From Lachnospiraceae bacterium (GTDB taxonomy: Bacteria > Bacillota > Clostridia > Lachnospirales > Lachnospiraceae): a DNA stretch of 44,458 nucleotides. The translations under genes were made by a program, and so were the position numbers. Shown one piece after another: positions 23,217 through 44,458 of this stretch. Position 1 is the stretch's first letter. Every line of letters begins with the position of its first letter. The notes under the pieces were generated by a model that did not search any database, was not told where the DNA came from, and worked only from the letters and a program-made list of their open reading frames with translations. The stretch is taken from the NCBI GenBank assembly GCA_017441825.1, contig JAFRVD010000042.1, forward strand, positions 1-44,458, given 5' to 3'.

Positions 23217-23290
<74 letters not shown>

Positions 23291-31850: not shown

Positions 31851-32876
31851 TCACTTCATGACAAGCTCATCTTCGGAGGGAAGAGGGGCGAGCGGACTGC
31901 CCGGAAGCGTCTGGTACCAGTATGCGACGGAGGTGTAGTCATCGTAGCGGGAGCCGGTCCAGCCTAGATTGTCCAGGGTCATCCGGAAGCCTTCCCGGAA
32001 GTGGATCGGGTCCTTCAGGTGGAAACGGTACAGAAGGAAGCGCTGCTGTCCCTCGTACCAGGCGTCATTGTCGCCCATGATGGCAAAGAGCCCGCTGTAC
32101 AGTCCCTTATAGGTCTGGTAGTGCCTGATCAGGATGTCGTTTCCGAAGCCGTAGGAGCCGCAGAAATAATCTTCCGTCCCGGTGTAGTGCATGGACGGCG
32201 CGTCTTCACCGTCCAGGAACATCCGGGCTTCGCCCTCGACCCAGCAGGTGTTCGTCCCGTTCATGCCCGCAGCCAGCGTCACACCCACGAACTGGCCCTG
32301 TCCGCGGATGCCGTCGATGACCGTATAGGTCCGGCCCTTTTCGATCGGATGCGCCTGCCGGTAGGAAGCGTGGAAATACCCGGTATTCTCCGGGAGCGGC
32401 ATCCGGCAGCCGGTGATCATGTAATAGAGCCACTGATCTTCCTTCCCGCGGTTCTCCACGGTGATCCGGCAGTGCTTCCGGAAGGGCATTTCAAAATAGG
32501 AATTATAGCCTTTGCCCGGCGCGATCATCATGACCGGCGTGCTGAACGTTGGATACTGCCCTTTTTCATCCTTGTAGTTTTCGTCATAGGCGTTCCCGAA
32601 AAAAGCAGAGACCGGCGCCTCTACGGACGGATACTCCTGCCCGTCCCAGTAGATCCTTAAGATGAAGGAATGGCCGACGTAGCCGGTGAACCAGATGTGC
32701 TGGATCATGCCCGGGCCGTCCAGATCCGCGAGCACCGCGGTCTCCCCCGGAGCGATCCTGATATTGGGACGGAGCTTAACGTTTTCACCGGGGATCCCGC
32801 CGCCGCGGGCGCCCGTCGGATTCTCCGCGGAAAACGCGAAGGTTTCTGTATCCGTAATCAGCATGTAAGGTTTCAT
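31851..32876 (-). CDS. DUF2961 / GH172 family glycoside hydrolase
   Basis: A 341-residue protein of the DUF2961 family, now GH172, whose characterised members act on fructo- or arabinofuranosyl linkages (difructose dianhydride I synthase/hydrolase and alpha-D-arabinofuranosidases). The conserved blocks are visible: GPGMIQHIWFT, YYMITGCRMP, WVEGEARMFLDGED and HYTGTEDYFCGSYGFG, the last containing a conserved acidic pair. No signal peptide, so it is probably cytoplasmic; members assemble as trimers or hexamers. The ATG at 32876 has GGAGG 7 nt upstream and its own promoter. Substrate cannot be assigned; the neighbourhood (AI-2E permease, HAD phosphatase) gives no help. Confidence 0.87.
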   Translation of the reverse strand: MKPYMLITDTETFAFSAENPTGARGGGIPGENVKLRPNIRIAPGETAVLADLDGPGMIQHIWFTGYVGHSFILRIYWDGQEYPSVEAPVSAFFGNAYDENYKDEKGQYPTFSTPVMMIAPGKGYNSYFEMPFRKHCRITVENRGKEDQWLYYMITGCRMPLPENTGYFHASYRQAHPIEKGRTYTVIDGIRGQGQFVGVTLAAGMNGTNTCWVEGEARMFLDGEDAPSMHYTGTEDYFCGSYGFGNDILIRHYQTYKGLYSGLFAIMGDNDAWYEGQQRFLLYRFHLKDPIHFREGFRMTLDNLGWTGSRYDDYTSVAYWYQTLPGSPLAPLPSEDELVMK

Positions 32877-32901
32877 TTCATATCCTCCGTCATTTTGTAC
32901 C

Positions 32902-32929
32902 AGTATATCATCTTTTACTCTCATTTCAA
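32902..32929 (-). promoter_or_regulatory. Promoter of the GH172 gene
   Basis: On the minus strand, -35 TTGAAA (32929-32924), 16 bp, -10 TATACT (32907-32902), in the 63-bp gap between the HAD gene and the GH172 start. Confidence 0.7.
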
Positions 32930-32939
32930 TGCGGTACTT

Positions 32940-33620
32940 TCATATCATTGAGAGGTCCAGGCCATCCGCCGTATCCGGATCCCTAAGAAAATCGTACAGC
33001 TGGCCCGGGGTCCTGTAGCACAGGCCTTGCCAGCCCAGGATCAGCGCAGCCGCGATATTCGCCGGCGAATCATCGATAAACAGGGTCCTTTCCGGATCCA
33101 GCCGGTAGCGGCCGGTGAGCGTGCGGTAAATACCCTGGTCCGGCTTCATCTGGTGCTCCATTGCGGACACGACGTATCCGTCAAACAGCGAAAAGAAATC
33201 ATACTCATTCACATTTCTCAGGAAATGCCTTTCCGGATAATTGCTGAGCACATACAGTTTTTTCCCATGCGCCTTGCAGATCCTGACTGCGTCTTCCCCT
33301 TCCTTCACAACATACCGGTCATCCGGCCAGTCATACATCAGGTGGAAGATCGGCTCTATCAGATCTGTCTCATCCCCCGCCATGGCTTCCGCGCATTCTC
33401 TTTCTGTAATATAGCCGTAATCGAAAATATGCCAGAAGGGAGAAGACGTCGCTTTCCTGATCGCGCAGGAGATCAGTTCGTGATTCCCCGGATAAAACCG
33501 CGACAGCGTCTTTTCCATATCCAGGTCCACCAGAACGTCTCCTACGTCAAAAACAACATTGTCGATCAGATCCCATGGCATCGTCTGATACTTGTGGTTG
33601 ATCACGTCGTTCATCATCAT
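32940..33620 (-). CDS. HAD-superfamily phosphatase (YihX-like)
   Basis: A protein of about 226 residues with all four HAD motifs: NVVFDVGDVLVD (nucleophile Asp), YVLSNYPE, Lys in HQMKPDQGIYR, and TLFIDDSPANI. The cap region fits subfamily IA (YihX, an alpha-glucose-1-phosphatase, is a relative), but the substrate is unknown. Three consecutive ATGs (33620, 33617, 33614) follow AAAGGA; the first makes an ATGA overlap with the CDF transporter stop, while the third has the best spacing. The overlap means it is translated together with the metal transporter and is under the same metal riboswitch. Why a phosphatase is in that unit is unclear. Confidence 0.86.
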   Translation of the reverse strand: MMMNDVINHKYQTMPWDLIDNVVFDVGDVLVDLDMEKTLSRFYPGNHELISCAIRKATSSPFWHIFDYGYITERECAEAMAGDETDLIEPIFHLMYDWPDDRYVVKEGEDAVRICKAHGKKLYVLSNYPERHFLRNVNEYDFFSLFDGYVVSAMEHQMKPDQGIYRTLTGRYRLDPERTLFIDDSPANIAAALILGWQGLCYRTPGQLYDFLRDPDTADGLDLSMI

Positions 33621-34507
33621 ACTTCCTTTTCTTTGATCTGTCCCGGATTCACATGCACCATCACATGCTTCACGTCCGGGAAACACTGCTCTACTTTGTC
33701 ATGCACCCGCTCCGCAACACCGTGCGCGTGAAGGAGCGAACTGTTCCGGTCCACCGCGATCTCCACGTCGATGTAGACCTTGTTGCCGAACATCCTCGTA
33801 CTTAAGAGATCGATCCCCTCGACCTCCGGGTCGGACAGGATCACATCCCGCACCTCCTGCTCGTATTCCGGGCTGCAGGCGGTGTCCAGCATCTGCCGGA
33901 ACGCGCCTAAGAGGATATCGCAGGCCACCTTCAGAATAAAGAAACAGATGACGATGGACGCCGCAGGATCCATCCAGGGAAGGCCCAGCCGCGCACCGGC
34001 AATACCGATAAGCGAGCCGATGGATGAAAATGCGTCCGAGCGGTGATGCCAGGCATCGGCCTTGAAGGCTTCCGAATCCAGGATCTTCGCGTAGTGCATG
34101 GTATAGTGATACATGGCTTCCTTCACGAGGATCGACACAATTGCGGCAGCGAGCGGCAGTAGGGTCGGGATCTCCATCGCAGCCGGATCATAATGGATAA
34201 GCTTTTCAACACCGCTCCAGCCGATCCCGATGCCTGTCCCCGCCAGGATCAGACCGAGGAAGATGGACGCCACGCTCTCAAAGCGCTCGTGTCCGTACGG
34301 ATGCCGGGTATCCGCTTTCCGTCCGGCCAGGCGGACGCCCATCGTTGCGATCACGGTTGCAAAAACGTCGGACAGCGAGTGCACGGCGTCGGACACCATC
34401 GCGCCGGAATGTCCCAGAAAGCCCGCGGCGAGCTTAAACGCGGACAGAAGGACGTTCCCCGTGATCCCCACATGTGCCAGTTTATTTATGATTTTCTGTT
34501 CATCCAT
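33617..34507 (-). CDS. Cation diffusion facilitator (CDF) metal exporter
   Basis: A 296-residue CDF transporter that exchanges cytosolic divalent metal for protons. The first membrane metal-site half is in SDAVHSLSDVFAT, the second in ADAWHHRSDAFSS, and HPYGHERFESV follows the loop. The C-terminal cytosolic ferredoxin-like domain (about 210-296) includes MFGNKVYIDVEIAVDRNS and ends in HVMVHVNPGQ. About six membrane helices. The ATG at 34507 has AGAGGA 6 nt upstream. The leader carries a NiCo-type riboswitch with a terminator, so the metal is likely Co2+, Ni2+ or possibly Fe2+ rather than Zn2+. This metal assignment is inferred from the riboswitch class. Confidence 0.95.
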   Translation of the reverse strand: MDEQKIINKLAHVGITGNVLLSAFKLAAGFLGHSGAMVSDAVHSLSDVFATVIATMGVRLAGRKADTRHPYGHERFESVASIFLGLILAGTGIGIGWSGVEKLIHYDPAAMEIPTLLPLAAAIVSILVKEAMYHYTMHYAKILDSEAFKADAWHHRSDAFSSIGSLIGIAGARLGLPWMDPAASIVICFFILKVACDILLGAFRQMLDTACSPEYEQEVRDVILSDPEVEGIDLLSTRMFGNKVYIDVEIAVDRNSSLLHAHGVAERVHDKVEQCFPDVKHVMVHVNPGQIKEKEV

Positions 34508-34519
34508 ATCCGGTCCTCT

Positions 34520-34564
34520 AAAAAAGCACACCTGCAGAACAAAAGACTGTCCCGCAGATGTGCT
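34520..34564 (-). terminator. Riboswitch expression-platform terminator
   Basis: On the minus strand AGCACATCTGC (34564-34554) pairs with GCAGGTGTGCT (34535-34525) over 11 bp with one U-G pair, followed by six U (34525-34520). The 5' arm contains the 3' strand of the aptamer helix P4, and the loop contains the P1 strand, so metal-bound aptamer and terminator exclude each other. It sits just ahead of the CDF ribosome site. Confidence 0.9.
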
Positions 34565-34640
34565 GATCTACATACTATGATCCATGCTGATTCTTTCTGC
34601 TGCCCGTAAAAGGCCCGGCATATACTGCCTGTTCAAAGGC
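34542..34640 (-). promoter_or_regulatory. NiCo (czcD) riboswitch aptamer
   Basis: Reading down the minus strand, the junction segments of the NiCo class appear in order: CAGGCA (34631-34626), GCCGGGC (34619-34613), GGCAGCAGA (34604-34596) and CTGCGGGACAGT (34557-34546). P2 is a short GGCA/TGCC hairpin, P3 is GCC/GGC around a small loop, and P4 is GCAGA/TCTGC with an extended apical part. P1 pairs weakly around CAG. The known class folds as a four-way junction binding Co2+ or Ni2+, and a later report argues for Fe2+. It precedes a CDF exporter and overlaps a terminator, so metal should turn the gene on. The match is from memory of the motif, not a covariance-model score. Confidence 0.83.
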
Positions 34641-34652
34641 ATTCTACACTAT

Positions 34653-34955
34653 TTACGCCTCAAAGTCCATACATAAACGGATATCGACGTTTGGCCGGAC
34701 TTTTCCGTTCGCAACGGCCACATGCGCGGGATGCGTCTTGTATCCCTTGTATGTGGCTTCGTCCGTAAAGGTGCTGTCGAGCATGAGGTCTGCCGTAGAG
34801 GATGCAAGCCCTTCCGTAATGACACGGATCTCCACGAGTCCCGGGATCTTTCCCTCTAAGCCCTCGAGTCCTTCCTTGATGCCCCGCTTCACCTCTGCCT
34901 TTTCCTCTTCGGAAAACGTATCCTTTAAAGTCCAAACGATGATGTGCCTGACCAT
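34653..34955 (-). CDS. Dabb (stress-responsive A/B barrel) domain protein
   Basis: A 100-residue ferredoxin-like fold protein of the Dabb family. The opening MVRHIIVWTLKD, the KIPGLVEIRV strand and the ending YKTHPAHVAVANGKVRPNV are typical. Members form dimers and include heme- or small-molecule-binding enzymes as well as unknowns. No signal or membrane segment. It starts 21 bp after the last ABC gene, so it is probably the tail of the exporter operon, and ends 13 bp before the riboswitch leader. Function is not predictable. Confidence 0.87.
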   Translation of the reverse strand: MVRHIIVWTLKDTFSEEEKAEVKRGIKEGLEGLEGKIPGLVEIRVITEGLASSTADLMLDSTFTDEATYKGYKTHPAHVAVANGKVRPNVDIRLCMDFEA

Positions 34956-34976
34956 ATATGCCTTCCTTCCACCGCC

Positions 34977-35870
34977 TTACAACGGTCTTGTAATGATGAC
35001 CTGCCCGTCCTTCACTTCCATCCGGACCCGGTTCCCGTCCACGCCGATGTTCTCGAGTACCTCCCGCGGGATCTGCACCCGCCCCGCGCGGTCCAGGATC
35101 GCGTATTCGTCCTGCACCTCGCTCTGCTCCGTGAACGCGTTTACCTCGGACAGGCGGTCCAGCATTTCCTTCTTTAAATACATTTCCGAGCTGATCTTCC
35201 CGTCCCGGATGGCCGCCACACGGTTCACCTTCTTTGAAAGCGCGCGGTCGTGGGTGACGATCACGATGGTCAGCCCCATCTCCTGGTTGAGCCTCTTAAA
35301 CAGGTCCAGGATGTATTCGCCGGTCTTCACGTCAACGGAGCCCGTGGGCTCGTCGGCAAGGAGTACCTTCGGCCGGTTCGCAAGCGCGATGGCAATGGCT
35401 ACACGCTGCTGTTCGCCGCCGGACATCTGGCTTAAGCGGCTGTTCTTTTTGGAAGACAGGCCGACCAGATCCAGAAGCTCGAGCGCGCGCTCCTTCCGCT
35501 TTCCTTCACTCTCGAACAGCATGGGCATTTCGATGTTCTGCCACGCGGTCATGTACGGAAGCAGGTTTCTCGCGATATTCTGCCAGACAAACCCGACCGT
35601 GTTCTTTTTGTATTCCACGAGCTCCCGTTCATTCATCTTGAACAGGTTCTTCCCGTCCACTATGAGCTTCCCGGCAGACGGACGGTCCAGCCCGCCGATC
35701 ATGTTGAGGAACGTGGATTTGCCGGAGCCGCTGTTGCCGATAATGGCCATGAGCTCCCCTTCGTCGATCTGAATGTCCAGGCCCTGCAGCGCCAGTACCT
35801 CCAGATCCTCCGTCTTATAGATCTTGACCAGGTTGTCGCATTCAATGATCGGATTCACTGACCAGTTCAC
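34977..35870 (-). CDS. ABC transporter ATPase with C-terminal AbrB-like domain
   Basis: A 297-residue MacB/LolD-class ATPase. Walker A is GNSGSGKST, the signature is MSGGEQQRVAIA, Walker B is KVLLADEPTGSVD, and the H-loop is in IVTHDRA. After the usual about 225 residues and a linker, residues 255-297 (AILDRAGRVQIPREVLENIG, then VDGNRVRMEV) resemble an AbrB/SpoVT swapped-hairpin domain, which in transcription factors dimerises and binds DNA. The start is GTG at 35870 inside the last 29 bp of the other ATPase gene; a GTG at 35858 is an alternative. It likely pairs with that ATPase under the single FtsX-type permease. Whether the extra domain binds DNA or only dimerises is unknown. Confidence 0.9.
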   Translation of the reverse strand: MNWSVNPIIECDNLVKIYKTEDLEVLALQGLDIQIDEGELMAIIGNSGSGKSTFLNMIGGLDRPSAGKLIVDGKNLFKMNERELVEYKKNTVGFVWQNIARNLLPYMTAWQNIEMPMLFESEGKRKERALELLDLVGLSSKKNSRLSQMSGGEQQRVAIAIALANRPKVLLADEPTGSVDVKTGEYILDLFKRLNQEMGLTIVIVTHDRALSKKVNRVAAIRDGKISSEMYLKKEMLDRLSEVNAFTEQSEVQDEYAILDRAGRVQIPREVLENIGVDGNRVRMEVKDGQVIITRPL

Positions 35871-36522
35871 CGCCTTCCAGTTCGTATACCTTGTCGCCCA
35901 GCTGCATGAGCCCCACGTCGTGGGTCGTCATGATGATGGTGACGCCTTCCTTTTCCGTCAGATCCTTGAAGATCTTCACAACGGACAGACCGCTTGCAGT
36001 ATCCAGCGCCGCCGTCGGCTCATCCGCGAAGATGACCTTCGGGTGGTGGGCGATCGCCCGTGCGATCGCGATACGCTGCTGTTCGCCGCCGGAGAGCTCC
36101 TCCGGCATGTGCCCGGCACGCTGTGAAAGGCCTACAAGGTGCAGGCATTCCATCACCCGCTCCTTGTAATCGCCCTCGTACTGCACCATTCTGAGCGCGA
36201 ATTCCACGTTCTCATAAGCACTCATCATCGGGATGAGCGCCACGGACTGGAACACGTACCCGATCTCGGTCCTGCGGATCTTCGTCCGTTCGCCCTCGCT
36301 CATCTTTGTGATGTCCCGCCCGTTGAACAGGACGGTCCCTTCCGTCGGCATGTCGAGCGCGCTGATGATATTGACGAGAGTGGTCTTGCCGGAGCCGGAG
36401 CGCCCGCGTAAGATCGTGAGCTTCCCCTCCGGCATCTCCGTATTGATGTTCTTCAGTGCGTAAAAATCGCCGGCAAGCGATCTGAAAACCCGGCTCACGC
36501 CTTGTGTTACGATCATGTTCAT
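35842..36522 (-). CDS. ABC transporter ATPase, MacB/LolD class
   Basis: A 226-residue ATPase. Walker A is GRSGSGKTT, the signature is LSGGEQQRIAIARA, Walker B is KVIFADEPTAALD, and the H-loop is in IMTTHDV. Standard length with no extra domain. The class energises mechanotransmission permeases of the FtsX/MacB type rather than solute import. The ATG at 36522 is 44 bp past the permease stop, with a weak AGAG site. The second ATPase gene overlaps its end. Two unlike ATPases with one permease suggest a heterodimeric motor. Confidence 0.94.
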   Translation of the reverse strand: MNMIVTQGVSRVFRSLAGDFYALKNINTEMPEGKLTILRGRSGSGKTTLVNIISALDMPTEGTVLFNGRDITKMSEGERTKIRRTEIGYVFQSVALIPMMSAYENVEFALRMVQYEGDYKERVMECLHLVGLSQRAGHMPEELSGGEQQRIAIARAIAHHPKVIFADEPTAALDTASGLSVVKIFKDLTEKEGVTIIMTTHDVGLMQLGDKVYELEGGELVSESDH

Positions 36523-36566
36523 AGTCTGTATCTCTTTCTTTCAGTGTCCGGAAAGACAGTAGCGCT

Positions 36567-39377
36567 TTAATCTTCGCCAAGCTTCAGCGCCTGGGCGATC
36601 TTCATCTTCCTGATAATGGCCGCCAGGATCATGAGGCAGACAAAGATCATGAGGCCGATGATGATGCCGAGCCTGATAAAGTCGCCGGGGTCGTTGATGA
36701 TCCTGAGCGGGATCGAGTAGTCCGAGGACGAGTACGCGATCATGATGAGCGGGATGAACAGCCGTGCGGTCAGAACGCCCGTCACGACGCCGGCCAGGAT
36801 GGCACCTCCTGAGATGAACAGGTGCTCGTTGACCAGCATGTGGATGATATCGCCCATGGACATGCCCATCGCCCGGAAAATACCGAACTGGAGCTCACGC
36901 GACCTGACGGACAGGATCCAGTAGATCAGGAAGCCGACCGTACAGAGGACCAGCGCGACGATGAATCCGACTGTAAAAATACCGTTCGTGCCCTGAAGCA
37001 CCGCGTCGTTCTTCCGCTTCACGAGCTCCTGGGCGGTATCCGTGAAGGTCTTGAAGCTTGCGTCGGTCTCCTCCGCGAATTCATAGATGTACGTGCTGTT
37101 CGTCTTGTTCTTCATCCAGATCTGGTACGGAAGCACGCCCCAGTTTGCCTGAAGATAGTTCAGGTTGGCGACCACAAGGAAGTTTTCACGTTCCCTCATG
37201 ATACCGTCCGTATCCTTTTCATATGTAGCGGGCGGCCAGGACGGCCAGTAGTCCACGAACCCGTAGACCGTGACGAAAACCGTGCTCCCGCTGCCAGACT
37301 TCAGCGTCACAAGATCGCCCACGCGGAAGCCGTAGTTCTTGAAATTCGAGGACATCAGGATGGAGTTCGACCGCTGCGACAGCACGTTCAGGTAGTTGTA
37401 CCAGTGGATGGGCATGAGCGACGTGTCGAAGTTCGCCGTTTCGCCGAACTTTTTGGTCTCTATGCCCATGACCTCCACGTTCGAGACCTTGCCGCTTGAC
37501 ACGTTTACCGTGCCCTTTTTGTCGATATAGACCTTTGTCAGGGATTCCGCGCCTTCGAGGTCCTCATAGCGCAGGAAGCTCGGCTCGATATAGGCCGTCT
37601 TCCCGCCGGTGACCATTCCGGTCTGCATGTCCGTGGTACCGCCCTCCTGGATGATCGTCCAGTTCTCCTGGACCACCACGTCTGCGCCGGTCGTGTAGCG
37701 GAGGTTGTCCTCATCGTTGTTGTTGATGGTCCGCGCCGCCGATGCGTTGAAGATGCCGAGCGCGATGGTCATGACCAGGAACACCGTGATGGCGCCCTGC
37801 TGCTTCCTTGTGCGGAGGATCCGCACGAAGGAGGTGTACACCGCCGGGCTCCACTGCTTCTTGAAGAGGTTGAAGATCAGCTTCACGAACATCGGCAGGA
37901 TCCTCAGGATAAAGAGGCCCGCGCCCAGCATGAAGAGGGACGAGCTCAGGAACAGGAGCGGGTCCAGGGATTCTCCGGAAAGCACGCGCTCGGAGAGATA
38001 CGCCTTTTCATTGTTGAACGTATACAGGCCGTAGATGGATACGCCGAGGATCACGAGGTCGACGAAGTACCGCTGCCAGAACGGCACGTCGGTATTCCGG
38101 TGCTTCTTCTGCTTCTGGTTCACAATGGTCATCCGGGAATACTTGAACACCGGGACAGTCATCGCGAGTGCGGAAACGAGCGCCGCGATCCCCGCGTAGA
38201 TCAGAGCCGTATTATTGAGGATGATCTCCACATTTCTTCGCCGGACGAATTCCAGGAACGCGTTCGCGGAGAACAGGACCCTGGTCAGCCACAGCGCGAG
38301 CGGAATACCCGCCGCAAGGGACGAAGCCTCCAGCATCAGGCTCTGCAGGACGTAGATTCCAATGACCTGCCGTCTGCCGGCGCCGCGGCTCTTTAAGACC
38401 GCGATCTCGCCCTGCTCCATGCCAAGCAGCTGATTCGCGACCATCAGGATGAATGCCGCAAGAAGCGCGAAGATGGGCACCTGCAGCACAAGGAAGGTCG
38501 TACGGACCTTTTTCTCCGTCTTGAGGAAATTCCCGAGCGTATCCGTGTAGTTGTTATACGCCTTCATGCCGCCCTTGCCGCTGATCAGGCGGTTGGTCTC
38601 CTCCGTTGAAGTCAGGATCTGCTGGACGCCCTCGACCTTCAGATTTGAATAATCGTACATCGCGTACCAGGCCGCGCTGCACGCACGGTTGTCCGGCGTC
38701 AGGAACAGTGAAGCGAACAGTTCGCTGTCCATGAACAGCGTATAGGTGTAGCTGGACGGTGAATTGACCCAGTAGGTGTCCTCCCGGTCGGAATATGTAA
38801 AGATGCCGGCCACGCGGACCTTGACGGGGCTCCCGTCCGCATAGCTGTATTTGGTGTAGGTGATGGTCTCCCCGAGGATCAGCTTGGACTCCCGGAGGCA
38901 CGCCTCGGAAACGATCACGTCGACTACGCCGTTCTCATCGCGCTCCTTTGTCATCCCCGAGCCCTCGATAATGCTGACGTGGTCGGCAAGATCCGAGAGC
39001 GACCCTAAGTAGAACGTCGTGCTCTTGTCAGTTCGTTCAAGATCCGTTTCCGTTTCCGACCGGTACAGCGTGTAGTACTTTACGAGGTCCTTCAAGGGCA
39101 GCCCCACTGTCTCCGGCGTGGCTTCGATCTGCTTCTCCATCGCATAGAGGTCCTCGGAGTCGTTCATCAGGCTGGTGGAACGGACAGTGTACACCAGAGG
39201 ATAGCGGTTATTCTTCTCCACATAGTTCGAAAGAGAGGATTCCAGCGTCCTTTGCAGTACGGTCTCCGTGTAGATGGGGTTTGCGGCCGCAATTGCGATC
39301 AGCAGGATATTGCCGATGAGAAGCGACAGCACCATCCACTTCTTATTAAGCATTTTCCGAAATACAAAACGAAACAT
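36567..39377 (-). CDS. FtsX/MacB-type ABC permease, ten-helix
   Basis: A 936-residue permease. Helix 1 (about 13-35) precedes a large outer domain (about 36-290). Three helices then form the first FtsX core, with GEIAVLKSRGAGRRQVIG as the coupling segment. Two linker helices surround KQQGAITVFLVMTIALGI, and a second large outer domain (about 540-790) follows. Three final helices include the second coupling segment ELQFGIFRAMGMSMGDI. Both cores are present in one chain, so one copy can form a full transporter. It starts 10 bp past the third adaptor with AAGGGA upstream. Cargo is not readable; antimicrobial peptides or lipoproteins are usual for the class. Confidence 0.93.
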   Translation of the reverse strand: MFRFVFRKMLNKKWMVLSLLIGNILLIAIAAANPIYTETVLQRTLESSLSNYVEKNNRYPLVYTVRSTSLMNDSEDLYAMEKQIEATPETVGLPLKDLVKYYTLYRSETETDLERTDKSTTFYLGSLSDLADHVSIIEGSGMTKERDENGVVDVIVSEACLRESKLILGETITYTKYSYADGSPVKVRVAGIFTYSDREDTYWVNSPSSYTYTLFMDSELFASLFLTPDNRACSAAWYAMYDYSNLKVEGVQQILTSTEETNRLISGKGGMKAYNNYTDTLGNFLKTEKKVRTTFLVLQVPIFALLAAFILMVANQLLGMEQGEIAVLKSRGAGRRQVIGIYVLQSLMLEASSLAAGIPLALWLTRVLFSANAFLEFVRRRNVEIILNNTALIYAGIAALVSALAMTVPVFKYSRMTIVNQKQKKHRNTDVPFWQRYFVDLVILGVSIYGLYTFNNEKAYLSERVLSGESLDPLLFLSSSLFMLGAGLFILRILPMFVKLIFNLFKKQWSPAVYTSFVRILRTRKQQGAITVFLVMTIALGIFNASAARTINNNDEDNLRYTTGADVVVQENWTIIQEGGTTDMQTGMVTGGKTAYIEPSFLRYEDLEGAESLTKVYIDKKGTVNVSSGKVSNVEVMGIETKKFGETANFDTSLMPIHWYNYLNVLSQRSNSILMSSNFKNYGFRVGDLVTLKSGSGSTVFVTVYGFVDYWPSWPPATYEKDTDGIMRERENFLVVANLNYLQANWGVLPYQIWMKNKTNSTYIYEFAEETDASFKTFTDTAQELVKRKNDAVLQGTNGIFTVGFIVALVLCTVGFLIYWILSVRSRELQFGIFRAMGMSMGDIIHMLVNEHLFISGGAILAGVVTGVLTARLFIPLIMIAYSSSDYSIPLRIINDPGDFIRLGIIIGLMIFVCLMILAAIIRKMKIAQALKLGED

Positions 39378-39387
39378 TTGATCCCTT

Positions 39388-40503
39388 TCAGTTCAGTATG
39401 ACTACGTCGCCCTCTTGAAGCCCCTCAAGGATCCAGGAGTAATACCGGTTCGAATAAGCTATGATGACGGGACGCCGATGTACATTATTATTCTCATCCA
39501 GGAGACTCACGTACACCTCCTGCCCGGAGGTCTCCTTCGCGTCGAGCGGAAGCAGAAGCACCTCTGCCACCCGGCTCGTTTCAGCATTGACGGAGAGCCG
39601 GAGCGCCATGTACTGGTTTCCGCTGAAGGCCTCCACCAGATTTTCGAGCTCCTTCGGGATCTCCACCCGGATGAGTACGTTATTTTTATTGACGCCCTTG
39701 ATATCGGCAGCGCTCACCACCACCTTGCCGGGAAGGCTGTATTCATTGCCGCGGACGGAGGCCTTAACGGTGACATCGGTCCCGTAATGGAATGTGCTGG
39801 ATTCTGCGGACACATAGAAAACGCTGGTATCCGTGATCCTGAAGAGGGTGTCGCCGGGATTGACGTAATCCCCGTTCTGGAAGTACTTCAGATCCGTGAT
39901 CTTCCCGCCTATGGGCGCCGTCACGTACGTGACAGCGTTGTCCTCGCGGAGCTTAGTAAGCTCTTCCTCCTGGCGCGCGATCTCCCTTTCTGTCTGTGCA
40001 ATATACTGCTGAAGCGCGACCTCTCTGCGCTCGATCGTCAGATTGGCTTTCTGGATGGCGTAGGAGTCCGTAAGCGAATTCCTGTCCAGATTCAGGTTGG
40101 AGATCTCCGTACGGCGCTCCTTGAGGCCGGCTTCATACGTGGTCCGGGCCCGGGAAAGCTTAAGCTCCATCTCGCGGATGGCCGCCTCGTCTTTTTCGAC
40201 CTCCACCTTAAGAAGCTCCTGGCCGGCTTCCACGAATTCCCCGAATTCCACAAGCGTCTCCACGTAAAGTGCCCGGAGGCCGTCATAAAGTACGTAGGTC
40301 ACGTTCGGGTAGTACGGCACGCCGGAGGTCGTTTCCGTTTTGGCAAAGGTACCGTAGCCGATCTCTTCTGTTTTATAGCGGACGACGTCTGCCTTGATGC
40401 TCTCCTGCGGGATGATGTCGAGATCTTCTGCGAAGATATTGTGCGGAAGCAGGAGGATGGCTGATGCCAGCAGCACGAACAGGACTTTCTTAATCCGGGA
40501 CAT
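39388..40503 (-). CDS. HlyD-like efflux adaptor 3, secreted or membrane-anchored
   Basis: A 371-residue membrane-fusion type adaptor. The N-terminal hydrophobic stretch (VLFVLLASAILLLPHNIFA) is a signal peptide or anchor without a lipobox. A biotinyl-lipoyl half (VEFGEFVEAGQELLKVEVEK), a coiled-coil hairpin (about 115-190, rich in Glu/Arg/Leu), the second lipoyl half (VTYVTAPIGGKITDLKYFQNGDYVNPGDTL, shown only in part) and beta-barrel domains follow. The start ATG 40503 has AAGGAG 9 nt upstream and overlaps the end of adaptor 2. A longer frame to 40599 is out-of-frame overlap. In a Gram-positive it would link the permease to cargo or wall rather than to an outer-membrane channel. Confidence 0.9.
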   Translation of the reverse strand: MSRIKKVLFVLLASAILLLPHNIFAEDLDIIPQESIKADVVRYKTEEIGYGTFAKTETTSGVPYYPNVTYVLYDGLRALYVETLVEFGEFVEAGQELLKVEVEKDEAAIREMELKLSRARTTYEAGLKERRTEISNLNLDRNSLTDSYAIQKANLTIERREVALQQYIAQTEREIARQEEELTKLREDNAVTYVTAPIGGKITDLKYFQNGDYVNPGDTLFRITDTSVFYVSAESSTFHYGTDVTVKASVRGNEYSLPGKVVVSAADIKGVNKNNVLIRVEIPKELENLVEAFSGNQYMALRLSVNAETSRVAEVLLLPLDAKETSGQEVYVSLLDENNNVHRRPVIIAYSNRYYSWILEGLQEGDVVILN

Positions 40504-41575
40504 AAACCGTTTCTCCTTCCGTGAGTTCAGAACGGATCTCCGTGAACGCGTTGTTCGTGCGTCCGGTCTCGATATAGCGCTTCGTTCTGGTGCCGTCATC
40601 GTTGATGACGTAGATGTATTTGCCGCCGTCGTCGTTCAGGATGGCGTTTTTCGGCAGGATGAGGACGTCCTTCACGTGGAGATATTCGATGTACAGAGCA
40701 CCCATATCTCCGCAGACGAGGTCCTTTCCGTCTTTAATGTAAAATTCGCTCTGGAGGGATTCTCCCGCAAGCTGGGCCGCACGGAGTTCATCCTCTTCAG
40801 GGATGATGAGCTCCACTTCATACTCTTTTCCGTTGATATAGGCGAACATCGGGAACCGCTCGTAATCATACTCGGAAACATAGCCTTCCGTAATGAACCG
40901 CGCGTCCGAAGGGTCCATTAAGTACATGACAGTCCCGCCGTCGTGCACCGGGGAGCCCTCGGAAAGGGAGTCGTCAAAATAGATGTAGCCGCTGTGAGGC
41001 GCACAGAGCTCCTTCTGTTCGATCTTTTTGTCAAGCGCGGCTTTTACGGTCTCTAAGGCCTCCACTTCAGCTTCATGGTCTTCAACGGCGTGCTCTTTTT
41101 TCTGGTTCGCCTGCTGAAGCTCCACGCTTTTTGCGGCGTACGCGGCGCTGCCGGTCCCCTGCCTTGCGGCGATCTCATTCAGCTCCACCATAACGTAGTT
41201 GATGTCCAGATTATAGAGCTGGAGCTCGTATTCCCACTGCTCCTTCATGCTCTCAAGCTGTTCCTCAAGCGCTTCATCCTGTTCGATGATGTCGTCTACG
41301 TCCAGCGTGATCAGGACTTCACCCTCTTCCACGTACTTGCCCGAATAGACCGGAACGCTTTTTACGATGCCGTCCGTTTTGAAGTACAGCTTGGTGGTGC
41401 CGGGGATCATCCGGCCGTACTGTACGTTGCGGTTGACGATATCGCCGATCTCCGCCGTACAGGTATCTATAGAGACGCCCACGGGCTCCAGAAGCTCCGG
41501 AGCAGCCTCCGACGAGCTCCTTCCGCACCCGGCCAGCATCAACAGTATGCAAAGAATTATCAGCGTCTTTTTCAT
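40490..41575 (-). CDS. HlyD-like efflux adaptor 2, lipoprotein
   Basis: A 361-residue adaptor with lipobox LAGC (Cys17). After about residue 60 a lipoyl half (SGKYVEEGEVLITLDVDD) precedes a coiled coil (about 95-180, LEEQLESMKEQWEYEL to VEALETVKAALDKK), then APHSGYIYFDD as the second lipoyl half, and beta domains ending LTEGETVYVPD. The C terminus overlaps the start of adaptor 3, and adaptor 1 ends 12 bp upstream. The coiled coil is of a different length from its neighbours, so this is not a recent duplicate. Confidence 0.9.
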   Translation of the reverse strand: MKKTLIILCILLMLAGCGRSSSEAAPELLEPVGVSIDTCTAEIGDIVNRNVQYGRMIPGTTKLYFKTDGIVKSVPVYSGKYVEEGEVLITLDVDDIIEQDEALEEQLESMKEQWEYELQLYNLDINYVMVELNEIAARQGTGSAAYAAKSVELQQANQKKEHAVEDHEAEVEALETVKAALDKKIEQKELCAPHSGYIYFDDSLSEGSPVHDGGTVMYLMDPSDARFITEGYVSEYDYERFPMFAYINGKEYEVELIIPEEDELRAAQLAGESLQSEFYIKDGKDLVCGDMGALYIEYLHVKDVLILPKNAILNDDGGKYIYVINDDGTRTKRYIETGRTNNAFTEIRSELTEGETVYVPD

Positions 41576-41587
41576 CGTATTCCTCCG

Positions 41588-42682
41588 TCATCGGATGATG
41601 ACAGGATCTCCTTCCTCCAGTCCGGAAATGACCTCTACATAGCTTCCGTCGTTGAGACCGGTCACGATCTCCTTATACGTCCGGAGTCCGAATTCGTCCG
41701 GATAATAGACGACGGTCTTCCCGTTGATCTCTGAAACAGCTTTCTTGGGGACGCACAGCACGTTGGATTTTTTTGCCTCTGTCAGGGTGACCGACCCGCT
41801 TGCGCTGTCGCTCAGAGTATATACCGTCTCGCGAAGCGCAAGGTAAATGGTTCCCGACTTGCCTTCTACATGGGCTGTCTCCGGAATACCGAGCTCTTCC
41901 TCCGAGCACACCACGGCGTCATATTCCACATTTCCGGATACGACCGTGCATTCGAGCCCGGGCTCAAACAGAGAGAAATATTCCGTACTGCCCTTGAACA
42001 GTGAAAGCGACGAGTCCGCGATGGTCACCACACGCTTTGACGCCTGCGAGACCGCGTCCGGGTCCGGAGAGATCACATAGGTGATCACGCCGTCGAACGG
42101 TGCGTAGATCTGGCGCTTCCTGATGTCCTCCTCATAAGCCTCGACCCGTATCCTGGAGACCTCGTTCGCATCCGCAAGCGTCCCGATCTGGAGGTCGTAT
42201 CTGCTGTTGATCTGTTCAACGTTCTGGACGTACTTCGCGTAGGTCATGGAGGACGCGCGGTATTCCATCATCCTGAGCTCCAGCGTACGGTCCTCCTCAA
42301 GCTGGCGCATTCTGCGCTCGTTCGCTTCGATGGACTTCTCTTCCTTCTCCACGTTTTCAAGCAGCTGCTCCGTGTCGAGCTCGATCAGCAGGTCGCCCTC
42401 ATGGACCGACTGGCCCGCCTCCGCATAGATGTTTCCGTACTTGACGCCGCCCACGTCAAACGACATGGAGACGGTCTGGAGCGGTACGTATTTCACGGAG
42501 ACCTTGACCTTCACCTCGAGATCCATCCGGATACACTCGGAAAGGACGTAGTCCTCGCTCTCATAGTCTCCCACGTACGGGACGTCCTGGAATGTCTCTT
42601 CTTCCGGGATCAGCCCGCAGGACGTGGTGGCTGCCGCAGCCAGAGCAAGCAGCGTGATTTTCAATTTCTTTAAGACTCTCAT
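41588..42682 (-). CDS. HlyD-like efflux adaptor 1, lipoprotein, first gene of the operon
   Basis: A 364-residue adaptor with lipobox TTSC (Cys22). The lipoyl half AGQSVHEGDLLIELDTEQLL precedes a coiled coil (about 110-185), the second half YAPFDGVITYVISPDPDAV, and a C-terminal domain ending SGLEEGDPVIIR. AGGGA lies 8 nt before the ATG. The leader of about 108 nt runs from a strong promoter and can form a GC-rich CGGGC/GCCCG-type hairpin around 42705-42720. Together with adaptors 2 and 3 it precedes the permease and both ATPases. Confidence 0.9.
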   Translation of the reverse strand: MRVLKKLKITLLALAAAATTSCGLIPEEETFQDVPYVGDYESEDYVLSECIRMDLEVKVKVSVKYVPLQTVSMSFDVGGVKYGNIYAEAGQSVHEGDLLIELDTEQLLENVEKEEKSIEANERRMRQLEEDRTLELRMMEYRASSMTYAKYVQNVEQINSRYDLQIGTLADANEVSRIRVEAYEEDIRKRQIYAPFDGVITYVISPDPDAVSQASKRVVTIADSSLSLFKGSTEYFSLFEPGLECTVVSGNVEYDAVVCSEEELGIPETAHVEGKSGTIYLALRETVYTLSDSASGSVTLTEAKKSNVLCVPKKAVSEINGKTVVYYPDEFGLRTYKEIVTGLNDGSYVEVISGLEEGDPVIIR

Positions 42683-42796
42683 CGTGTCATTCCCTGTGTG
42701 ATTGATCCGGGCCGGAGCCCGTATTGCTGCTCCCGGCGATGCCCTCCCCGGCGCCGTCCGGGATCATTTATGTACGACAAAACCATAATCTGAATC

Positions 42797-42825
42797 ATTA
42801 TACTAAGAAACAAATCGAAAATCAA
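42797..42825 (-). promoter_or_regulatory. Promoter of the ABC exporter operon
   Basis: On the minus strand, -35 TTGATT (42825-42820), 17 bp, perfect -10 TATAAT (42802-42797). It is the only good promoter I see for the run from adaptor 1 to the Dabb gene. The 309-bp gap 42683-42991 holds this promoter, the leader hairpin and the divergent MATE promoter, and no gene. Confidence 0.83.
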
Positions 42826-42915
42826 TCCAAACAGGCACACATGTATTCAGGAAAAGTAACTTTTTGCAAAAATCTCCTGTCAGCCCGTACGATTATCCTA
42901 TTGCTTCTGCGCTGA

Positions 42916-42945
42916 TTGACATCCTCCCATCCTCTATTATAGAAT
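42916..42945 (+). promoter_or_regulatory. Promoter of the MATE gene
   Basis: -35 TTGACA (42916-42921, perfect). The -10 is TATAGA (42938-42943, 16-bp spacer) or the overlapping TAGAAT (42940-42945, 18-bp spacer). It is divergent from the ABC exporter promoter about 100 bp away. Confidence 0.75.
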
Positions 42946-42991
42946 GGTCCTGCACTCAACTCTATTGAATACAGCAGGCAAAGGAGACCCG

Positions 42992-44380
42992 ATGAGCATT
43001 TTCAGATCAAGAAACATCAACATGACCGAAGGGAAGCCGCTTAAGCTCATGCTGGCTTTTTCGGTGCCGCTCATGTTCGGAAACGTCTTCCAGCAGTTCT
43101 ATACGGTCACGGATACGGCCATCATCGGCCAGGGCGTGGGGATCGCCGCGCTCGCGGCCCTGGGCGCCGTGGACTGGCTCGCGTGGCTTCCGTTCTGCAT
43201 TCCGCAGGGCTTCACCCAGGGATTCTCGGTCATGGCTTCACAGAAATTCGGCGAAGGGGATCTCCCGGGCCTCAGGAAGGTAGTGGGCCAGAGCTTCCGG
43301 ATCTCCGTGATCCTTGCACTCGTCTGTACAGCGGTGAGCCTTGTGCTGGTCCCGTGGTTCATGGACGTCCTGAACGTCCGCCCTGAGCTCGCGCCGCTCG
43401 CCTCCTCCTACCTCTACATCCTGTTCGGCGGCTTTGCCGCCGCGGTCTTCTATAACTTCGCAGCGTCGATGCTTCGGGCGGTGGGCGACAGCAAGACGCC
43501 GCTCATGGCCATGGTCATCTCCTCCGTCATCAACATTTCCCTGGACGCGCTGACTGTTTTCGTGTTCAAATGGGGGATCGTAGGCGCAGCCGGCGCGACC
43601 GTGTTTTCGCAGGTCATCGCAGGGTCCATCTGCATGGTCCGGATGCTCCGGATGCCGGAGCTTAAATTTTCGAGGGAGGATCTCCGCCGGGACGCGCGGC
43701 TTTCAGTGAGGCTCGTGCGGCTCGGTGCGCCGATGTGCCTCATGAACGTCATCATCTGCATCGGCGGCCTCGTGCTCCTGTCGGTAGTGAACCGGTTCTC
43801 CGTAGGCTTTATTGCGGGCTATACCGCAACGAACAAGCTCTACGGTATCCTCGAGATCGCATGTGTTTCCTACAGCTACGCCGTCACGACGTTTGTCGGC
43901 CAGAACTACGGCGCGGGCAACAAGACGCGCATCCGGAAGGGCGTGGTCACGGCGCTGTACCTTTCCGTTGCCACGGCGCTCCTAATCGGGTTCCTTCTGT
44001 TCGTCTTCGGGAAGCAGCTGACCGGCATCTTCATCTCGAAGGAGGACATGTCCCTTTATGAGGTGGCCTCCGGAACGGCATACCAATACCTTCAGTACAT
44101 GGCGGGCATGCTCCCGATCCTCTACATTCTCTACGTATACCGCTCCGCCCTCCAGGGCATGGGCGACATGGTGGTGCCGATGATCTCCGGGATCATCGAG
44201 TTCTGTCTCCGTGTGGGCATCGCCCTCTACGTGGGCGTCCACGGGCCTGAGAGCGGCGTCTTCCTCGCGGAGGTCTCCGCGTGGGCCGGGGCCGCGGTCT
44301 TCCTCTGCATCATGTACTACGTGAAGCGTGAGAAGCTCATGACCTTCCCGGAGCACGAGGGCCCGGACGCGGCGGCCTAG
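42992..44380 (+). CDS. MATE family multidrug/metabolite exporter
   Basis: A 462-residue membrane protein of twelve predicted helices in two six-helix halves. MLAFSVPLMFGNVFQQFYTVTDTAIIG (given in part) opens the first MatE domain, and LVRLGAPMCLMNVIICIGG opens the second. Typical MATE glycine and proline positions are kept. Such proteins export cationic drugs or metabolites with Na+ or H+. AAAGGAG lies 5 nt before ATG 42992, which rules out the ATG 16 codons earlier. It is the only plus-strand gene of the right half. The next 78 bases to the window end hold no coding signal I can support. Confidence 0.94.
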   Translation: MSIFRSRNINMTEGKPLKLMLAFSVPLMFGNVFQQFYTVTDTAIIGQGVGIAALAALGAVDWLAWLPFCIPQGFTQGFSVMASQKFGEGDLPGLRKVVGQSFRISVILALVCTAVSLVLVPWFMDVLNVRPELAPLASSYLYILFGGFAAAVFYNFAASMLRAVGDSKTPLMAMVISSVINISLDALTVFVFKWGIVGAAGATVFSQVIAGSICMVRMLRMPELKFSREDLRRDARLSVRLVRLGAPMCLMNVIICIGGLVLLSVVNRFSVGFIAGYTATNKLYGILEIACVSYSYAVTTFVGQNYGAGNKTRIRKGVVTALYLSVATALLIGFLLFVFGKQLTGIFISKEDMSLYEVASGTAYQYLQYMAGMLPILYILYVYRSALQGMGDMVVPMISGIIEFCLRVGIALYVGVHGPESGVFLAEVSAWAGAAVFLCIMYYVKREKLMTFPEHEGPDAAA

Positions 44381-44458
44381 GGCCGACGGCGGGCGAGCCC
44401 TGCCGGACGGCGGGCCGCTGCGTCCGTACCGTCACATATAAAGAGACCCGCCCGGGAC

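Follow-up and report, generated by a model that had tools for sequence, protein, structure and literature searches.

Three unlike MacA-type adaptors conserved beside a single FtsX-type permease in Lachnospiraceae

The question raised by this locus is why one permease should be encoded together with three unlike adaptors, and whether the three would work in one assembly. The DNA analyzed, referred to below as the window, is a stretch of 44,458 nucleotides from a Lachnospiraceae bacterium (GenBank assembly GCA_017441825.1, contig JAFRVD010000042.1), and all coordinates are window positions. A run of six genes on its minus strand, from 42682 to 34977, encodes the adaptors A, B, and C, the permease P, and the ATPases N1 and N2, in that order, followed by a small gene for a Dabb-domain protein. 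Passages in reviews of such machines (PMC8277102, PMC5985334, PMC5768738, and PMC4338810) describe MacB-type pumps with one adaptor, MacA-type rings that are homohexamers and, as the mixed case, the two-adaptor resistance-nodulation-division (RND) pump TriABC-OpmH. The same three adaptors proved to be inherited jointly across many relatives of the operon, which suggests a mixed adaptor assembly of an undescribed kind. With moderate confidence, we propose that the operon encodes a six-part MacB-type (FtsX-fold) ATP-binding cassette (ABC) exporter or mechanotransmitter, in which A, B, and C would form a mixed ring on P and the N1-N2 pair would serve as the drive.

A preliminary description of the operon had listed three distinct adaptors (two lipoproteins and one with a plain signal or anchor), one ten-helix permease, and two ATPases; gene calls, Pfam and NCBIfam matches, and hydropathy agree with that list. 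It was silent on the Dabb gene, the AbrB-like tail of N2, the repeated fusion of B to C, and the one-adaptor state of distant relatives.

The three adaptors and their conservation

Adaptors A (41588..42682, 364 amino acids) and B (40490..41575, 361 amino acids), both on the minus strand, are MacA/HlyD-type lipoproteins. A itself matched RND_mfp with an expectation value (E) of 5.2e-24 and B with one of 2.8e-22; the family profile of A matched MacA structures at about 1e-37, and that of B the putative MacA 4dk0 (1.5e-30). The lipobox cysteine of A, Cys22, was invariant in 19 of 19 aligned family members, and that of B, C17, was kept in at least 90% of 20. Adaptor C lies at 39388..40503 of the same strand, in an open frame that extends to 40599; its likely start at 40503 (MSRIKKVLFVLL...FAED) gives a 14-base overlap with the end of B. 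C matched HlyD_3 (4.1e-12) and RND_mfp (1.6e-21), its family profile matched 4dk0 (3.3e-26), and the window protein has a plain Sec-type signal without a lipobox. With a permissive pattern, a lipobox was found in the first 75 residues of 62 of 73 A, 37 of 47 B, and 34 of 47 C proteins, and in 24 of the 28 proteins in which B and C are fused. NCBIfam RND_mfp scores for A, B, and C were all below the curated cut-off. Their family profiles aligned nearly end to end with MacA of known structure, and each adaptor has the MacA/HlyD build, in which lipoyl halves surround a coiled-coil hairpin and are followed by beta-barrel and membrane-proximal parts. Among the top matches of the adaptor profiles was PDB chain 6vej_P, a 695-residue RND membrane-fusion chain that we take to come from TriABC. 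Elsewhere in the window genome, which is 82% complete, RND_mfp was matched only by two short stretches, both partial and both in one 162-residue frame.

Relatives of the operon were picked by permease similarity, with P as the query. At E ≤ 1e-20, 47 of 397 family genomes contained a homologue of P, and a search of a named genome collection gave 12 loci. After removal of L035 and L039 as copies of L044 and L047, the first set contained 61 loci, the window and 60 relatives. A profile search with P (E ≤ 1e-30) gave matches in 48 of 392 order, 58 of 391 class, and 13 of 398 phylum genomes, sets that overlap by a few genomes, and 60 of these wider-set loci were read. One of them, L104, duplicates the contig stretch of L038, and for this reason the counts of 98 N2 and 99 N1 proteins given below hold one locus twice.

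Three separate adaptor genes preceded P in 33 of the 61 first-set loci (the B frame of L054 is split in two), and in 25 others B and C were one protein of 622 to 860 amino acids. The first scan placed a gene for A before the fused protein in 23 of these, and a profile search added L081; L078 stops at a contig edge. The remaining three loci were L034, on a 4.3-kb contig, L049, whose contig ends in a fragment of B, and L061, in which A was seen and B and C were recovered by profile search. Thus all three adaptor units were present in order in 57 of the 60 relatives, and in the other three (L034, L049, and L078) the contig stops short. None of the first-set loci with readable flanks had just one or two adaptor units. 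When hidden Markov models built only from unfused B and C were applied to the 25 fused proteins, the first half was B in every case and the second half was C in 23; of the other two second halves, one was a tie and one leaned slightly to B. The survey bears out the three-adaptor set as conserved; independent duplicates without a fixed order, the outcome that would have spoken against it, were looked for and not found.

Phylogenetic trees gave the same result. After thinning at 65% identity, 42 three-gene, 22 fused, and 30 single-adaptor loci were available; 19, 9, and 18 of these entered the adaptor tree, and of the 19, 8 were chosen by hand and the rest at random. In the maximum-likelihood tree of the resulting 102 adaptor units, A, B, C, and the single adaptors formed four clades, each with 100% ultrafast bootstrap support and each intact in every one of the 200 bootstrap trees inspected. 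A, B, and C were thus each one clade over 28 loci, and the four clades were obtained both in this tree and in a quicker one. They are to be read with the caveat that many end branches are long (the median is 1.11 changes per column) and letter composition varies.

A permease tree of 96 of 123 sequences, without an outgroup root, contained a single branch (support 100) that parts one-adaptor from three-adaptor loci, and four or more changes are required on it to account for the B-C fusion. Outside the order most loci had a single adaptor, arranged A-P-N1-N2 or, in other classes, N1-A-P-N2. Exceptions were the three-adaptor loci L104, L105, and L118 outside the order and the one-adaptor locus L145 inside it. 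Because one adaptor is found in distant classes, it is probably the ancestral state on this unrooted tree. From the fixed order, the four clades, and the single split of the permease tree, we conclude that the three adaptors are one old triplication kept in order rather than casual duplicates, and the two kinds of tree rule out independent duplication without a conserved order. That the operon is an ordinary one-adaptor MacAB-like exporter with two redundant duplicates is therefore very improbable: distant relatives do manage with one adaptor, but all three were kept at every first-set locus with readable flanks.

Overlooked adaptors in the one-adaptor loci were also considered. A full-sensitivity search of 136 flanking frames from 36 such loci gave strong matches only in L124, L126, L129, and L130, all of family f63, where the extra adaptor belongs to a second module. 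In this family (L124, L126, and L128 to L130) a module with further adaptors, and with its own permease where the stretch reaches, lies behind A-P-N1-N2; it is a different route to more adaptors. A search of plasmids gave one full-length relative, from Paenibacillus cellulosilyticus, with the order N1-A-P-N2-solute-binding protein, plus one partial match.

The permease and the ATPase pair

Permease P (36567..39377, minus strand, 936 amino acids) contains two FtsX domains in one chain, with two stretches matching PF02687 (E 2.1e-18). In hydropathy averaged over 24 homologues, nine transmembrane peaks were clear and one more fell marginally short of the threshold (1.29 vs 1.3), so the ten helices of the preliminary description fit. 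Long extracytoplasmic stretches follow the first and seventh peaks: peaks lie at residues 20-29 and 297-313, and at 533-542 and 801-818, with none between the members of each pair. P therefore has the MacB-type trait of a large extracytoplasmic domain between the first and second helix of each half. Its profile matched LolC, LolF, PsdB, and BceB over part of its length, the first half corresponding to LolC. Judged by these matches and this topology, P is an FtsX/MacB-type permease.

ATPase N1 (35842..36522, 226 amino acids) and ATPase N2 (34977..35870, 297 amino acids), also on the minus strand, matched ABC_tran with E of 1.8e-36 and 7e-33. Walker A, the Q loop, the signature, the Walker B glutamate, and the H loop were each kept in 96 to 99 of 99 N1 relatives and in 97 or 98 of 98 N2 relatives. 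In ten one-adaptor and six three-adaptor loci no ATPase gene stood directly behind P. Fourteen genomes, 13 of the 14 with such loci and that of the window, were searched with N2 (E ≤ 1e-60), and each had one N2, which in G613 is in two pieces on two contig ends. G856 was left out of this search; its second locus, L120, has N1 and N2. N1 adjoined N2 in 11 of the 13 genomes, stood before A in G750, and was not seen near N2 in G622 within the short stretch examined. In G782, G833, G938, G851, G968, G809, G973, G422, G491, G613, and G622, N2 was found away from the ATPase-less P locus, as a rule beside N1. With one N2 per genome, mostly beside N1, the pair is the unit, and one pair can serve more than one permease. 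We conclude from this distribution that N1 and N2 behave as an obligate pair. The proposal that they form an asymmetric motor holds to the extent that the two are unlike and kept together; asymmetry of the kind that arises from one dead site was not seen, since all motifs are intact in both.

The last 47 residues of N2 (34980..35120) form an AbrB-like tail. The isolated C-terminus matched PF04014 with E 0.0013, under the Pfam cut-off. When a profile of 32 tails was compared with the PDB, the three best matches were AbrB chains (E 8.8e-6 to 1.2e-5); signal recognition particle chains (1e-4 over 25 residues, taken for chance matches), MazE (0.002), and MraZ (0.04) came after them. The tail was present in all 98 N2 proteins, including those from distant classes and from Paenibacillus, with an aspartate kept in 98 and the arginine of a GR motif in 97. 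A search of five genomes with the tail profile gave N2 as the sole strong match (68 to 87 bits), and the next scored at most 28. By these alignments the tail is homologous to AbrB and thus related to the swapped-hairpin domain of AbrB and MazE, but in N2 it sits on an ABC ATPase. The AbrB fold is a swapped dimer. N1 is not long enough to carry a tail of this kind, so pairing by tails would bring together two N2 chains and hence two motors. The tail would most likely serve to couple motors in this way, or to fix their geometry, rather than to bind DNA.

Readings of the assembly

MacB carries its ATPase and permease in one chain. In the assembly that we propose, the single chain of P would supply both of the halves that MacB makes as a dimer, and N1 and N2 would drive it as an obligate unlike pair in place of two equal ATPases. 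Adaptors A, B, and C would co-assemble on P outside the membrane, replacing the homohexamer of MacA. The simplest such ring would have six members in the order A-B-C-A-B-C, with B and C as direct neighbors; six places divided among three kinds would give two of each. Use of ATP in the cytoplasm would then move a substrate on the envelope side, export being the activity expected from family membership.

Known systems offer partial parallels. In MacAB-TolC, as described in passages of PMC5985334, one MacA hexamer stands on each MacB dimer; MacB-type machines as a family use ATP in the cytoplasm to move parts outside the membrane, a mode termed mechanotransmission. The window operon resembles the Escherichia coli system in having an FtsX-fold permease with an extracytoplasmic domain and MacA-type adaptors, and MacA chains were among the best structural relatives of A, B, and C. 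It differs in having one double permease, two separate ATPases, and, instead of a single adaptor type, three adaptors from three clades. Spr0693 is described as a hexameric tube (PMC5768738) and Spr0694-0695 as a dimer (PMC5768738; PMC8277102). Spr0693-0695 and YknWXYZ resemble the operon in that adaptor, ATPase, and permease are encoded by separate genes, but they have one adaptor and one ATPase type. BceB has ten helices, and BceAB is described without an adaptor (PMC5985334); it is also an FtsX-fold system, but BceB has one large extracellular domain, whereas P has two and is accompanied by three adaptors. The requirement of TriABC-OpmH of Pseudomonas aeruginosa for unlike TriA and TriB has been read as evidence for mixed adaptor oligomers (PMC4338810). 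That system is an RND pump with an outer-membrane channel and two adaptors, whereas the window transporter is of the FtsX/ABC type with three.

No three-adaptor pump and no AbrB-tailed ABC ATPase appeared among the open-licence papers listed in searches for them, and the suggestion that the system is undescribed stands to that extent. The "three membrane fusion proteins" in a passage of PMC8963506 are upregulated adaptors of Geobacter metal RND pumps, not parts of one pump. The family forms a graded series around one permease, with one adaptor, three, or three of which two are fused, and therefore allows one to ask why rings turn asymmetric and what each position does. It also bears on what adaptors do where there is no outer membrane, and the ABC ATPase with its invariable AbrB-like end offers a second part open to test.

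Several points weigh against the proposed mixed assembly. Machines with the FtsX fold can serve in signalling or release, and the adaptors could act in turn rather than in one ring. The hairpins, which by alignment span about 92 (A), 101 (B), and 96 (C) residues in the window, did not change in length as a set over 64 loci (rho was 0.41 for A-B, −0.25 for A-C, and 0.06 for B-C). Among these loci B reached 232 residues and C 188. In five of the 64 (L047, L085, L086, L087, and L090), A was practically without a hairpin, and B and C retained theirs, so an even distal tube is impossible at these loci. Equal hairpins thus failed as proof of a mixed tube, and the idea that the three adaptors build such a tube across the thick wall found no support in its original form. 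These data speak against an even mixed tube in general, but they do not tell against a basal mixed ring.

A bolder form of the proposal is an obligate A2B2C2 ring on the single-chain pseudo-dimeric permease, with an N1-N2 heterodimer and AbrB-like tails that tie two motors together. This would be the first adaptor assembly with three different components; a one-adaptor pump would have given rise to it a single time, and repeated fusion of B to C would have locked it in place. We advance it tentatively, as possible but somewhat doubtful.

A rather unlikely reading is that the machine is a mechanotransmitter and not an exporter, serving surface or lipoprotein work (for example, the passing of glycans or lipoproteins between membrane and wall) and tied to sugar uptake. 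The best curated match of N2 was LolD, and LolC is matched by the first half of P. A PF01547 solute-binding protein is encoded directly downstream in 7 of the 61 cases scanned, and sugar-type permeases, NHL proteins, and glycosidases recur nearby. Most scanned loci, however, have no such direct neighbor, and the next five genes of the window encode MatE, cation-efflux, HAD hydrolase, DUF2961, and AI-2E-type transporter proteins. The Lol comparison is itself partial: LolCDE and LolDF share the FtsX-fold permease, but the window operon has adaptors and unlike ATPases, whereas LolCDE uses two identical LolD ATPases and Lol systems have, to our knowledge, no membrane-fusion adaptor.

The three adaptors have diverged strongly, with a median of 1.11 changes per column on their end branches, and their hairpins are unequal; this would also be consistent with alternative adaptors, each forming its own ring, among which P would choose by cargo or condition. 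We consider this improbable, given the fixed order and the retention of all three. Moreover, repeated fusion joins B and C in a single chain and so in a 1:1 ratio, which homomeric rings do not fit.

Homology of the N2 tail to the DNA-binding AbrB domain raises a further reading, that N2 is a transcription regulator sensing its own assembly state. Although the N2 tails retain the arginine of GR, the paired arginines of the AbrB ELRR motif, which contact DNA in AbrB, are replaced in them, mostly by Leu (78 of 98) and by Glu or Asp (72 of 98). Since they are not conserved, DNA binding looks less likely, and a regulatory N2 is a poor prospect.

Expression signals and neighboring genes

Spacing between successive genes from A to the Dabb gene is 12 bases, an overlap, 10, 44, −29, and 21 bases, computed with the long frame of C. 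A consensus scan found a promoter-like site, TTGATT-17-TATAAT (42797..42825, minus strand, 10 of 12 matches), well positioned upstream of the operon, yet the total of such sites was not above that in shuffles (5 vs 5.2). A terminator-like hairpin with an 18-pair stem and a T run (34525..34564, minus strand), 3' of the Dabb gene, was the only minus-strand site of its kind within 33500-44458 in the scan. The operon is likely to be read as one transcript. In a search of the whole window at Rfam gathering scores, a tRNA at 23217-23290 was the sole match, and no RNA element was found at the operon.

The last gene of the run (34653..34955, minus strand) encodes a 100-residue protein with a stress-responsive A/B barrel Dabb domain (PF07876, E 6.8e-20). 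In the architecture tables of the first set it adjoins the operon only in the window and the near relative L032, and it is therefore not part of the system. Beyond it, three genes past the Dabb gene, a DUF2961 protein is encoded at 31851-32924 (PF11175, E 1.4e-76).

Scans of 61 of 68 downstream and 64 of 80 upstream genes revealed varied neighbors, with no gene that always adjoins the operon and no fixed cargo gene. Besides those for the seven PF01547 proteins, the downstream genes included three for GH43 proteins and three for cyclophilins. The ten genomes counted, those of the window and of others with such loci, hold 5 to 60 PF01547 proteins each, so direct adjacency to the operon looks commoner than chance. 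Pairs of sugar-type ABC permeases occurred downstream in L063, L073, L122, L152, and L153 and upstream in L069, L070, L072, L135, and L149, accompanied in several loci by a solute-binding protein of about 1000 residues and an NHL-repeat protein. The order N1-A-P-N2 followed directly by a solute-binding protein, seen in P. cellulosilyticus (L154:11789-13351), recurred in three genomes of one distant family (L094 to L096). Finally, a DUF6034 protein was encoded in one to several copies upstream of A (e.g., L080:3625-5031); it accounts for 5 of the 64 upstream genes and belongs to a cluster of 17 proteins from 7 loci.

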